Shown here: in pieces, positions 13,353 to 18,788 of the stretch | How positions within the stretch are numbered: position 1 is the first letter of the stretch | Layout: each line of letters starts with the position of its first letter | Source of the DNA: Lysobacterales bacterium | GTDB taxonomy: Bacteria > Pseudomonadota > Gammaproteobacteria > Xanthomonadales > SZUA-36 | DNA length: 64,000 bases | Assembly (NCBI GenBank): GCA_013042915.1 | Contig: JABDPF010000033.1 | Location: 1-64,000, forward strand | Direction: 5' to 3' | Position numbers and translations under genes: made by a program | The notes under the pieces: generated by a model | Databases searched by the model: none | What the model was told of the DNA's origin: nothing | Seen by the model: the letters and a program-made list of their open reading frames with translations, nothing else

Positions 13353-14567
13353 CTAGAACATATCGCGGGCCTTGAGCAAGGCATCGACGAACACGTCGAC
13401 TTCCTCGCGGGTGTTGTACATCCCAAACGAGGCCCGCGCCGTTGCCGCTACGCCGAAGAATTGCATCAGGGGCATCGTGCAGTGGTGGCCGGTACGGATG
13501 GCCACCCCGTAATGATCGATAATGGTGCCGAGGTCGTGCGGGTGCACATCGCCAAACGTGAAACTGATCGTGCCAGCCTTGCCCGGGGCCGTGCCGATAA
13601 TGCGAACCTCGTCGATCTCGTTCATCCGTTCGGTGGCGTATTCGAGCACGTGCTGCTCCTGCGCAGCCGCATTCTCCACGCCGACCCGCTCGACGAATTC
13701 GAGCGCTGCGCCGAAACCCACCCCGCCGGCGATATTGGGCGTACCGGCCTCGAACTTGTTGGGCAGCTCGTTCCAGGTGGTTTTCTCAAACGTCACCTTT
13801 GAAATCATCTCGCCGCCGCCCTGCCAGGGGGGCATGTCCTCCAGGGTCTCCTCGCGTGCCCACAACGCCCCGATTCCCGTGGGCCCGTACACTTTGTGGG
13901 CCGAGCAACAATAAAAAGCGCAGCCGAGCTTCTGCACATCGACGGCAAGATGCGGCAGGGCCTGCGCTCCATCCACCAGCACCGGGATGTCGAACCGGGC
14001 GGCCATGCGGCATACCTCGGCTACGGGATTGACGGTGCCCAGCGCATTGGAAACGTGCACCAGGCCAAGCAGTTTTACCCGCTCTGACAACAGGGATTCC
14101 AGTTCGTCGAGGCGAAGTTCGCCGCTCTCGGTGATCGGAATCACCTTGAGCGAGGCGCCCGTGGCGTCGCGCAGCATCTGCCACGGAACGATGTTGGCGT
14201 GGTGCTCCATGTGCGAAACGAGGATTTCGTCACCCGGGCCCAGCCTCGAACGCAGGTAGCTGTTGGCCACCAGGTTGATGGCCTCAGTGGTTCCGCGCGT
14301 AAAAATGACCTCGCGCTCGGATCGCGCGTTGATGAACGAGGCCAGCGTGCGTCGCGCGCCCTCGTAGAGGTCCGTCGCTTCCTGGCTAAGCGTGTGCACC
14401 CCGCGGTGCACGTTGGCGTTGTGGCGCCGGTAGAAACGGTCGGTCGCCTCGATCACCGCCAGCGGACGCTGCGCGGTGGCCGCGGTGTCAAAATAGACCA
14501 GCGGTTTGCCGTGAACGGTTCTGTCCAGGGCGGGGAACTCCGCACGGATGTTGTCGACGTCGAACAT
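13353..14567 (-). CDS. sufS: cysteine desulfurase SufS (group II)
   Basis: PLP enzyme that takes sulfur from L-cysteine as a persulfide for Fe-S cluster assembly. 404 aa. Schiff-base Lys225 is in CCSAHKVYGPTGIGALW; the persulfide Cys lies at about residue 363 in AIRTGHHCTMPLM; EHHAN (about 121-125) is the cofactor-stacking His region. The frame extends 19 codons upstream, but MFDVDNIRAEFPALD is the family start and has GGAG about 10 nt before it. Last of the four core suf genes, 19 bp after sufD. No SufE or SufU sulfur carrier lies next to it. Confidence 0.95.
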   Translation of the reverse strand: MFDVDNIRAEFPALDRTVHGKPLVYFDTAATAQRPLAVIEATDRFYRRHNANVHRGVHTLSQEATDLYEGARRTLASFINARSEREVIFTRGTTEAINLVANSYLRSRLGPGDEILVSHMEHHANIVPWQMLRDATGASLKVIPITESGELRLDELESLLSERVKLLGLVHVSNALGTVNPVAEVCRMAARFDIPVLVDGAQALPHLAVDVQKLGCAFYCCSAHKVYGPTGIGALWAREETLEDMPPWQGGGEMISKVTFEKTTWNELPNKFEAGTPNIAGGVGFGAALEFVERVGVENAAAQEQHVLEYATERMNEIDEVRIIGTAPGKAGTISFTFGDVHPHDLGTIIDHYGVAIRTGHHCTMPLMQFFGVAATARASFGMYNTREEVDVFVDALLKARDMF

Positions 14568-14586
14568 GTTTGCTCCGTTGTCTTCG

Positions 14587-15891
14587 TTAGACCGATTCCG
14601 GCATGGCCGCACCGATTCGTTCACCCAGGTTTTCAGCCAGCGCCGCGTTGTTCAGCTTCTGGCTCACCGCGTGGCAAAAAGCAGCGGTCAGCAGTCGCCG
14701 CGCCTGGGCTTCGGTGAGGCCGCGCGTTCGCAGGTAGAAAATTGCACCCTCGTCCAGTTGCCCGACGGTTGCCCCGTGACTGGCCTCGACTTCGTCCGCG
14801 TAGATTTCGAGTTCGGGCTTGGTATCCATTTCCGCCAATGGCGAGAGCAGCAGGTTGGCATTGGATTGGCGCACGCTGCTGCCATCCGCGCCCTCCCGGA
14901 TCAGCGCGCGGCCATTGAATACGCCGCGGCTGCTGCCGCCCAATACGCCGCGGAAAAATTGCACGCTGCTGCAATCGGGCGCAACGTGCTCCACCGCCAC
15001 TCGGGTATCGCAATGGCGCCGCCCGTCGAGCACCCATGCGCCGGCAAGGTCAGCGCGCGCGCCTTCTCCTTCCAGCGATACGTGCAATTCGTGTCGCACC
15101 AGGCCGCCGCCAAGGTCGAAACCACGGAAACGGTAGCAGCTTGCGCCGTCTTGCTGGACCCGGGTCGTGGTCAGCAGGATGGCCTCTTCGCCCTCGTCCT
15201 GCACCCGCACGTGCTCGAGCTCGGCGTTTTCCGCCAGATGGGGCTGCACCAGCAGGTGCAGAGCAGCCGGTGAGGTTACCTCCGCCAAGTGCTGCTCGAC
15301 GAGTTCGAGCCGGGCGCCCGCCTCCATCAGCAGCATCACCCGGCAAGGCACGAACTCATCGGCGGACCGGGCACTGCCTGCAAACCGCAGCAGCAGGGTG
15401 CCGGCGTCGGCTCCTTTTTCAACCCTGATGACGACACCCTGGTGCAGGAAGGCTGTGTTGATCGCATCAAAAGCCCGTGCCGGACCGTCCACCGGCACCG
15501 CCTCGGCCAATGCCCGAACCGGTCCCTCGAACATCTCGATGGCCTCCGCCAGCGTGAAGACGCTGACCCCGTCCGGGAGTTGGGCGGATCCTTGAGCCAG
15601 TACGCCGTCCACGATGTCGATCGCAGGAACGTCGGGCAGCAATGCAGCGTCAATCGTAACCGGGCAGGTCGAGGCGATTTTTCCGGGCAGCCCGGGACCC
15701 GCTGATTCCAGGCGTTTCAACGGCGTATAACGCCAGGCCTCGACTTTGCGGTGCGGAAAACCGCCGGCGCTGAAATGCCCCGTGGCCTTGTGCCGCAGGT
15801 CTTCCAGCCAGGTCGGGGACGCTGGAGTGTCCAGCTTGCGAACCTGGTCAGCCCAGCGGGCCGCGAGTTCAGTCAGTGTCGCATTGCTCAT
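14587..15891 (-). CDS. sufD: Fe-S cluster assembly protein SufD
   Basis: Scaffold partner of SufB in the SufBC2D complex. 434 aa. Recognised by the SufBD core beta-helix in the C-terminal half, including HCDTRVAVEHVAPDCSSVQF and KPELEIYADEVEASHGATVG with GAIFYLRTRGL (about residues 375-405), which contains the conserved His and the segment that pairs with SufB. N-terminus HRKVEAWRYTPLKRLE is typical of SufD. The frame is open 32 codons upstream into sufC; MSNATLTELAARW is used because it sits 1 nt after the sufC stop. Confidence 0.94.
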   Translation of the reverse strand: MSNATLTELAARWADQVRKLDTPASPTWLEDLRHKATGHFSAGGFPHRKVEAWRYTPLKRLESAGPGLPGKIASTCPVTIDAALLPDVPAIDIVDGVLAQGSAQLPDGVSVFTLAEAIEMFEGPVRALAEAVPVDGPARAFDAINTAFLHQGVVIRVEKGADAGTLLLRFAGSARSADEFVPCRVMLLMEAGARLELVEQHLAEVTSPAALHLLVQPHLAENAELEHVRVQDEGEEAILLTTTRVQQDGASCYRFRGFDLGGGLVRHELHVSLEGEGARADLAGAWVLDGRRHCDTRVAVEHVAPDCSSVQFFRGVLGGSSRGVFNGRALIREGADGSSVRQSNANLLLSPLAEMDTKPELEIYADEVEASHGATVGQLDEGAIFYLRTRGLTEAQARRLLTAAFCHAVSQKLNNAALAENLGERIGAAMPESV

Positions 15892-15892
15892 G

Positions 15893-16669
15893 TCAGGACC
15901 TGATCTCCACGTCCAGCGTGCCGATACCGCCCTGCTCCAGCCAGGCGTAGCCCTCGACTTCCAGCTTCTCGGCCAGGTCGGCTCCACCGCTGGCGACGAT
16001 CCGGCCGTGGGCGAGGACGTGCACGTAATCAGGCACGATGTACTCCAGCAAACGCTGGTAGTGGGTCACGACGATCATCGAGCGCTCTTCGCTGCGCTGC
16101 TTGTTCACGCCCTCGGCCACCAGCCGAAGCGCGTCGATATCCAGTCCGGAATCGGTTTCGTCCAGGATGGCCAGCCTCGGCTCGAGCACCGCCATCTGGA
16201 AGATCTCGTTGCGCTTTTTCTCGCCACCCGAGAATCCCTCGTTGACCGCGCGGTGCATCAGATCGTCGTCGATGTGCAGCACCTTCAGTTTTTCGCGAAC
16301 GAGCTTGAGAAACTGCATGGAATCCAGTTCCGTTTCGCCACGGTATTTGCGCTGGGCATTGAGCGCGGTGCGGAGAAAATACGTGTTGTTCACGCCCGGG
16401 ATTTCAACCGGGTACTGGAATGCCAGGAAAATTCCCTCGCAGGCGCGCTCTTCCGGCTCCAGTTCCAGCAGGTCTTTGCCCCGGTACAACACCTCTCCTT
16501 TCGTCACTTCGTAGCCTTCCCGTCCGGCGATCACGTTGCCGAGCGTGCTCTTTCCGGCGCCGTTGGGACCCATGATGGCGTGTACCTCGCCGGGACCGAT
16601 CTCCAGGTCCAGGCCCTTGAGTATCGGTTTGCCCATCACGTTCGCGTGCAGGTTTCTGACTTCTAGCAT
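15893..16669 (-). CDS. sufC: Fe-S cluster assembly ATPase SufC
   Basis: ABC-type ATPase of the SufBC2D scaffold; cytosolic, not a transporter. 258 aa. Walker A GPNGAGKST (about residues 34-42), the SufC-specific signature FSGGEKKRNEIFQ, Walker B LAILDETDSGLDID, and the H-loop IVVTHYQRLL are all present. It is preceded by a 118-bp gap from sufB that contains a hairpin, and is followed 1 nt later by sufD. Confidence 0.97.
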   Translation of the reverse strand: MLEVRNLHANVMGKPILKGLDLEIGPGEVHAIMGPNGAGKSTLGNVIAGREGYEVTKGEVLYRGKDLLELEPEERACEGIFLAFQYPVEIPGVNNTYFLRTALNAQRKYRGETELDSMQFLKLVREKLKVLHIDDDLMHRAVNEGFSGGEKKRNEIFQMAVLEPRLAILDETDSGLDIDALRLVAEGVNKQRSEERSMIVVTHYQRLLEYIVPDYVHVLAHGRIVASGGADLAEKLEVEGYAWLEQGGIGTLDVEIRS

Positions 16670-16787: not shown

Positions 16788-18248
16788 CTATCCCACCGCA
16801 CCTTCCAGGCTCACCTCGAGCAGTGCCTTGGCCTCCACCGCAAATTCCATCGGCAGCTCCTTGAACACGGCCTTGCAGAAGCCATCGACGATCATCGAGA
16901 CCGCATCCTCCTCGGAGATGCCGCGCTGCAGGCAATAAAACAACTGATCCTCGCCGATGCGCGAGGTCGTGGCTTCGTGCTCGACCTTCGCGCTCGGGTT
17001 GCCGACCTCGATGTAGGGGAAAGTGTGCGCCCCGCACTTCTTGCCGATCAGCATCGAGTCGCATTGCGTGTAATTACGTGCGTTTTCGGCTTTCTTCGCG
17101 ACGCGCACGAGGCCCCGGTACGACTGCTGTCCGCGACCCGCCGAGATGCCCTTGGAGATGATCTTGCTGCGGGTGTCGCGCCCGATGTGGATCATCTTGG
17201 TCCCGGTATCGGCCTGCTGCATGTTGTTGGTCAGCGCGACCGAGTAGAACTCGCCCGTGGAATGATCGCCGCGAAGCACGCAGGACGGGTACTTCCAGGT
17301 GATGGCCGAGCCGGTCTCGACCTGGGTCCAGGAGATTTTCGAACGGTCTCCGCGGCAGTCGCCGCGCTTGGTGACGAAGTTGTAGATACCGCCCTTGCCG
17401 TTTTCGTCCCCGGGATACCAGTTCTGCACCGTCGAGTACTTGATTTCGGCGTCCTGGAGCGCGACCAGCTCGACAACCGCGGCGTGCAATTGGTTTTCGT
17501 CCCGCATCGGCGCGGTGCAGCCCTCGAGGTAACTCACGTAAGCCTCGTCCTCGGCGATGATCAGGGTCCGCTCGAACTGGCCGGTTTCCGCCGCGTTGAT
17601 ACGAAAATAGGTAGAGAGCTCCATCGGGCATCTCACGCCCTTGGGGATGTAGACGAAACTGCCGTCCGAGAACACCGCCGAGTTCAGAGCCGCAAAAAAG
17701 TTGTCCCGTGCGGGCACCACGCTGCCGAGGTAGCGCCGGACCAGCTCGGGATGGTCCTTAACCGCCTCGGAAAAAGAGCAGAAAATCACGCCGGCCTTGG
17801 AAAGCTCCTCGCGAAAGGTCGTGCCGACGGAAACCGAGTCGAACACGGCATCGACGGCCACGCCGGCCAGGCGGGCCCGTTCGTGCAGGGGCACGCCCAG
17901 CTTGTCGTAGGTCTCGAGAAGCTTCGGGTCGACGTCGTCGAGGCTTTGCGGCCGGTCCTTGTCCGATTTGGGCGCCGAGAAATAAGAAATGTCCTGGAAA
18001 TGGATCGGGTCCACGTTGAGATGCGCCCAATCCGGCTGCTGCATGCCCTGCCACAGGCGGAACGCTTCGAGGCGCCATTCCAGCAACCATTCCGGCTCTT
18101 CCTTGCGCGCCGAAATCCAGCGGACTACGTCCTCGTCGAGCCCAGGGGGCAATCCCTCGGACTCGATGTCGGTGACGAAACCGTGCTTGTATTTTTGCTG
18201 CACGAAGCGGTCGACGGATGAACCGGTCTGTGCTGTGGATTCGCTCAT
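16788..18248 (-). CDS. sufB: Fe-S cluster assembly protein SufB
   Basis: Scaffold subunit on which the cluster is built in SufBC2D. 486 aa, normal for the family. Seen: the N-terminal [24 protein letters not shown] block, [20 protein letters not shown], and the C-terminal [16 protein letters not shown] / [20 protein letters not shown] region shared by all SufB proteins. First structural gene of the operon, 61 bp after sufR. Confidence 0.97.
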
Positions 18249-18309: not shown

Positions 18310-18753
18310 TCATACACCGAGGGTCGTGATGTTCAACGGCGGCTTGTTGGGGCTGTGCGGCGCCGACATCTCGGCCAGGCTGACCACCTGCAATGCCTGT
18401 TTCACCGCCAGGCTGATACGCTGCCAGTTGCCGCGCAGCCCGCATTGGTCTTCCTGGCTGCACAGTCCCTCCTCCACGCTGCACTCGGTCATCGCCACCG
18501 GCCCCTCGATGGCCTCGATGACCTCCGCCACGCTGATGTCGCTGGCAGAGCGATTCGCGCGGTAGCCGCCGTTGGCGCCCCGGTAAGACGCCAGCAGCCC
18601 GTGGCCGGCAAGCAGCTTCAGGACCTTGCTGGCCGTGGGCAGTTCGATACCGACCCGCTCGGCGACCGCATGTGAACTGAGCATGTCGCCATTTCGGGTC
18701 AGTTCCACCATCACCAGGATGGCGTAATCGGTCAGTTTGGATATTCTCAACAT
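18310..18753 (-). CDS. sufR: Rrf2-family SUF system regulator (IscR/SufR-like)
   Basis: 147 aa winged-helix regulator opening with MLRISKLTDYAILVMVEL, the start typical of the SUF-associated Rrf2 subfamily. Cys91, Cys98 and Cys104 (C-X6-C-X5-C) match the three [2Fe-2S]-ligating cysteines of IscR, so it probably senses cluster status and controls the operon it leads. The frame is open 85 codons upstream; an ATG three codons earlier (18762) is also possible but would overlap the predicted -10 box. I choose 18753 because the predicted transcription start falls on it and the family begins there. Confidence 0.9.
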   Translation of the reverse strand: MLRISKLTDYAILVMVELTRNGDMLSSHAVAERVGIELPTASKVLKLLAGHGLLASYRGANGGYRANRSASDISVAEVIEAIEGPVAMTECSVEEGLCSQEDQCGLRGNWQRISLAVKQALQVVSLAEMSAPHSPNKPPLNITTLGV

Positions 18754-18759
18754 ACGGCT

Positions 18760-18788
18760 CATATAGTACCACATCAGTACTGTTTCAA
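18760..18788 (-). promoter_or_regulatory. sufR promoter with palindromic operator-like spacer
   Basis: On the minus strand TTGAAA (18783-18788) and TATATG (18760-18765) are 17 bp apart. The spacer region contains an inverted repeat, AGTAC (18765-18769) and GTACT (18777-18781), separated by 7 bp. Location inside the promoter of an Rrf2-family gene suggests autoregulation by SufR (inference). The expected start, about 7 nt after the -10, coincides with the A of the ATG at 18753, i.e. a leaderless transcript. Confidence 0.55.

Follow-up and report, generated by a model that had tools for sequence, protein, structure and literature searches.

Predicted SufR operator at the promoter of the suf operon in a Lysobacterales bacterium: a conserved palindrome with lineage-specific promoter registers

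A 25-bp sequence upstream of sufR, AAACAGTACTGATGTGGTACTATAT (positions 18761-18785, minus strand), is likely to be the operator through which SufR, the Rrf2-type protein of the gene downstream of it, would autorepress sufR-sufBCDS; transcription is predicted to start on the sufR ATG or no more than a few bases away from it. The site lies in a 64,000-nt stretch of DNA, here called the window, from a Lysobacterales bacterium (SZUA-36; assembly GCA_013042915.1, contig JABDPF010000033.1, positions 1-64,000). The prediction draws on five computed features: the identity of the gene, conservation of the site, its single copy, its overlap with the promoter and the absence of room for a Shine-Dalgarno sequence.

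The suf operon and the palindrome in the window

The suf operon is headed by sufR (18310-18753, minus strand, 147 aa) and continues on the same strand with sufB (16788-18248), sufC (15893-16669), sufD (14587-15987) and sufS (13353-14624), the coordinates of the last two being those of open frames whose true starts are probably internal. An amgK-like gene is divergent from sufR. SufR belongs to the Rrf2 family and scores 142.8 bits against TIGR02944 (suf_reg_Xantho, the Rrf2-type SUF regulator), above the cut-off of 110.65, but only 66.6 bits against the IscR model TIGR02010, for which the cut-off is 207.55. Named relatives recovered by a SufR protein search were largely Xanthomonadales/Lysobacterales.

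The core of the predicted operator is an inner palindrome, AGTAC-N7-GTACT (18765-18781, minus strand). On re-reading the minus strand, the hexamers, spacings and coordinates given in the preliminary description all proved correct: a -35-like TTGAAA (18783-18788) is followed after 17 bp by TATATG (18760-18765), the first base of which is the last base of the palindrome, and six further nucleotides lead to an ATG whose A is position 18753. On the opposite strand, a promoter-like pair, TGGATA-18-TATAGT (18738-18767, plus strand), also overlaps the operator and faces the divergent amgK-like gene. With up to two mismatches allowed, the palindrome has six matches in the window against 5.5 expected, the only exact one being that at 18765-18781, and a looser form of the 25-bp site has one match in the 2.69-Mb genome, as does its reversed control. 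As these statistics are non-significant alone, significance was drawn from conservation.

Conservation of the operator upstream of sufR

We searched 61 genomes and detected sufR in 56 of them, 33 from the family of the window's bacterium and 23 from elsewhere in the order; the gene was undetected in G002, G006, G021, G027 and G053. The preliminary description had named a lack of conservation in relatives as evidence against its palindrome, and the opposite was found: each of the 56 relatives in which sufR was detected has the 25-mer upstream of the gene, at 4 to 88 nt from the ATG, and in G021 the site precedes a sufR that is cut off by the contig end. A 25-mer pattern allowing at most three mismatches gave 30 matches in 30 of the 61 genomes, one per genome, against none in the control; all 30 are upstream of sufR, including the truncated one, and no match fell outside sufR.

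Conservation extends beyond these genomes. From the 23 sites of the order's other families we built a position matrix and applied it to 64 new loci (80 named loci less 16 duplicates of earlier ones), with 1600 shuffles and 1424 control stretches serving as the null. All 64 loci score above the null maximum, as do 31 of the 33 own-family sites. At the class level, 30 of 56 matches came with loci, and the outgroup counts rest on these; 29 loci were scored, of which two belonged to the order and were excluded, leaving 27 from other gammaproteobacterial orders. With the symmetrised form of the matrix all 27 are above the 99% null and 25 exceed the maximum of 1450 shuffles. A dimeric Rrf2 protein acting as a repressor, as had been proposed, would be expected to use just such a conserved, sufR-linked site that overlaps a promoter, and judged by its sequence conservation the palindrome is genuine biology.

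The search upstream of sufR orthologues and other Fe-S genes that the preliminary description had suggested was positive for the orthologues and found the site before no other gene in the window's genome, where it is present in a single copy within the patterns searched; the case for SufR specificity therefore depends on linkage and on a few relatives, such as G056 with its nfuA-like gene. An order-type pattern had 23 matches in the 61 genomes, 20 at sufR and three elsewhere. One of the three is a SufR-type site 38 nt before an nfuA-like gene in G056, a member of another family of the order (contig 10, L212:1501-1525); the gene product scores 216 bits against the NfuA model, under the 269-bit cut-off, and the site hints at a slightly larger regulon in that relative. 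In G044 (contig 6, L207:1501-1525) a perfect match precedes an mntP-like gene for manganese efflux by about 26 nt, and a one-mismatch site is found beside, apparently not upstream of, a DUF1244 gene in G039 (contig 1, L192:1501-1525), possibly by chance. We read all three as isolated cases.

Half-site variation and relationship to IscR type-1 sites

The right half-site is GTAC in all 33 own-family sites, and the left is GTAC in 25 and GGAC in eight. Elsewhere in the order the left half-site is GTAC in 21 of 23 sites, while the right is GTCC in 11 and GTAC in seven. In the outgroup orders sites are often of the GGAC-N7-GTCC type, the left half-site being mostly GGAC (16/27) and the right mostly GTCC (22/27).

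The IscR type-1 consensus reported for E. coli and P. aeruginosa is ATASYYGACTRWWWYAGTCRRSTAT (PMC6599224). The window site resembles such sites in its length of 25 bp, centre, half-site spacing and A/T-rich ends, half-sites being arranged around a 7-bp centre in both, and differs in its half-sites, which are GTAC in place of GACT/AGTC. It is identical to the full consensus at 15 of 25 positions and agrees with the type-1 core, GACTRWWWYAGTC, at nine of 13. The claim that the motif departs from the classic IscR type-1 consensus is thus correct by letters. The geometry is nevertheless shared, and the complete core, present in none of the 33 own-family sites, occurs in six of the 27 outgroup sites. 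GTAC-N7-GTAC accordingly seems to be a lineage variant within the IscR type-1/RisR geometry and not a new kind of site.

Promoter registers

Over the 150 nt that precede sufR, the pair named in the preliminary description, TTGAAA-17-TATATG, is the best of all pairs with 16 to 18 bp spacing, matching at nine of 12 positions with a runner-up at seven. TATATG is absent from a general promoter scan because it lacks the T at its sixth position (-7). A -35 at TTGAAA is supported by a family-specific TT upstream of the operator: at operator positions -3 and -2, T is found in 26/33 and 28/33 family members versus 7/23 and 11/23 sites from the other families of the order. TATATG predicts a +1 at 18753. 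A second candidate, the extended -10 TGG-TACTAT (18763-18771, minus strand), predicts a +1 at about 18756 and hence a 3-nt leader.

To compare lineages, promoter registers were numbered on operator positions 1-25 and tested against 1000 flank shuffles, the counts from which refer to related sequences and hence are no strict probabilities. The best -10 register differs between the three groups. In the outgroup it occupies positions 10-15, the palindrome centre, with a -35 16-18 bp upstream (0/1000 shuffles as high); in the other families of the order it is 7-12, at the left half-site (0/1000); and in the window's family it is 21-26, at the right edge, as TTKAAA-17-TATATR, where no flank shuffle was as high for the 21 members with a long operator-ATG gap and nine of 1000 for the 12 with a short one. 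Register 18, that of TGG-TACTAT, is matched in the own family by 1000 and 988 of 1000 shuffles and has no -35 support. One conserved operator carrying three promoter registers in three lineages appears to be new here.

The outgroup register bears on the strongest alternative, in which sufR has a real short leader, transcribed from a -10 further upstream in the palindrome centre with a +1 some 8-12 nt before the ATG, the operator still being that of SufR. Two relatives of group g7 (L034, L035) also retain TAAAAT at the palindrome centre. We nevertheless think this unlikely for the window, where the central hexamer is TGATGT, missing the A at its second position and having no -35, and register 10 is equalled in the own family by 792 and 795 of 1000 flank shuffles. 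A start on the ATG or only a few bases from it is the reading that we prefer, and it is examined below against the leaders of the whole family.

Leader length and start codon

The gap between operator and ATG is 4-7 nt in 12 of the 33 family members (ten of 4 nt, one of 5 nt and the window with 7 nt), and it is also 4 nt before the truncated sufR of G021. Among the remaining members it is 25-49 nt in 20 and 82 nt in one (L013 in G015), the sister genomes of which have 4 nt; the longer gap looks like a later insertion. No Shine-Dalgarno match longer than 3 nt was found in any of the 12 short-gap members. Since only nine of the 21 long-gap members have a match of at least 4 nt, many members of the family lack a Shine-Dalgarno sequence, and its absence counts for little when taken by itself. 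The start codon is ATG in 12/12 short-gap members versus 16/21 of the rest, and in eight of the 12 the frame reaches an upstream stop without passing another ATG, GTG or TTG, which supports the start codon at 18753. Together, the short gap, the lack of a Shine-Dalgarno sequence and the support for the start codon make a leader with a ribosome-binding site unlikely.

Where exactly transcription begins is less certain. TATATG would place the +1 on the A of the ATG only in the window, with its 7-nt gap; in the gap-5 member it falls on the third base of the ATG, and in the ten gap-4 members on the first base of codon 2. This assignment starts inside sufR in 10 of the 12 short-gap relatives and so cannot hold in all of them. 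The register of TGG-TACTAT puts it on the A of the ATG in the gap-4 relatives. Under either candidate, sufR is probably leaderless or near-leaderless in the window's lineage. The leaderless transcript that had been proposed is therefore plausible: the gap is too short to hold a Shine-Dalgarno leader, although the +1 is uncertain to the base, and with a 25-49 nt gap in most family members the trait, as predicted from sequence, is lineage-specific and not general. A leaderless sufR might, as the preliminary description suggested, be translated in another way than the suf genes that follow it. Our tree splits the short-gap members between g1/g4/g5/g6/g12 and a second position where g7 stands next to g8 (83/95); given its weak inner support, two origins of the short-gap state are tentative.

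The SufR protein and other candidate regulators

Residues P39, T40, K43 and K46 of the recognition helix and the cysteines C91, C98 and C104 are invariant in all 36 SufRs compared. The IscR recognition residues Ser40/Glu43/Gln44 (PMC9973013) are not seen in the SufR helix, P39-T40-x-S42-K43, when it is aligned with IscR by eye. SufR also departs from the IscR ligand set C92, C98, C104 and H107: three cysteines are found in 36/36 proteins, while the histidine that IscR has at 107 is found in 0/36. Aspartate 9, present in 35/36, is roughly where ScNsrR has Asp8, a ligand of its cluster (PMC5411485). The three invariant cysteines, the absence of H107 and the position of D9 make a [4Fe-4S] cluster in SufR possible.

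A family search gave three Rrf2 matches in the window's genome: SufR, a protein encoded on contig C63 that is NsrR-like by eye, and one below the cut-off. That the site is bound not by SufR but by a different regulator of the Rrf2 or Fe-S kind, such as a paralogue of IscR or NsrR, is suggested by this second Rrf2 gene and by a site geometry common to IscR type-1 and RisR sites, but we regard it as very improbable: the family search recovered no IscR, the C63 member is away from suf, the third is below the family cut-off, and the site precedes sufR in every genome in which sufR was detected. One NifU_N match was found in the genome, on another contig and outside any recognisable isc operon. A chance match or promoter by-product with no regulator, for which it might be said that the reversed control leads one to expect a loose version about once per genome, can be practically dismissed given conservation across families and orders while ATG distance and promoter register vary.

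Proposed mechanism and relationship to known systems

What we infer from the computed features is that SufR binds the site, represses the operon and senses a cluster, and where the +1 lies. In the proposed mechanism, a SufR dimer, presumably with an Fe-S cluster held by C91, C98 and C104, would occupy the 25-bp site and cover the gap between -35 and -10 together with the first part of the -10, if not more of it, thereby blocking RNA polymerase and repressing sufR-sufBCDS. Loss of or damage to the cluster would cause SufR to release the site and the operon to be induced. Transcription would begin on the sufR ATG or just a few bases from it, probably yielding a leaderless or near-leaderless message.

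Such an arrangement resembles that of IscR, which autorepresses its operon from a type-1 site overlapping the promoter, as SufR is predicted to do in the window; in P. aeruginosa, IscR site B lies between -35 and -10 (PMC6599224). For RisR of Myxococcus xanthus, an Rrf2 Fe-S regulator, footprinting gave the site T(t/g)GAC-N7-GTCC(t/a) (PMC9973013). RisR shares with SufR an N7 palindrome, AT-rich flanks, overlap with promoter hexamers, three cysteines and Rrf2 control of SUF, but it is a member of the distant Rrf2 subgroup IS6 and has both isc and suf under its control (PMC9973013). Closer to the window's bacterium is X. campestris, a SUF-only member of the same order, where an 'IscR' site is cited as characterised (Fuangthong et al., 2015, via PMC6599224); this 'IscR' very likely belongs to the same SufR subfamily. 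The suggestion that the palindrome may define the recognition site of the subfamily is thus borne out as a motif, but for the X. campestris protein a characterised site is already on record by citation. Searching the literature by title and abstract, we found no paper defining a TIGR02944 operator, which is not to claim its absence from print.

The name SufR is shared with unrelated proteins. In M. tuberculosis, Rv1460 'SufR', a suf repressor, is reported to be leaderless, and the idea has been raised that leaderless translation uncouples the regulator from its operon (PMC6034842). Rv1460 is, however, a DeoR/ArsR-like SufR, not an Rrf2 protein, and uses another operator (PMC8593673; PMC9973013). 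SufR is presented in a review only as a DeoR-type protein of cyanobacteria and actinobacteria (PMC8593673).

The data presented here give a candidate operator for a widespread, little-studied SUF regulator. Tentatively, and at somewhat less than even chances, we would extend this to a history in which three promoter registers were adopted on one operator and, in the window's own family, the leader was lost in at least one sub-lineage (two on the best tree), so that the start codon became the +1 and translation of the regulator was tied to the operator-promoter. Among the relatives, nature has varied the position of the promoter and the length of the leader around a fixed operator, and such a series could be used to probe the effect of leaderless translation on an autoregulatory loop.
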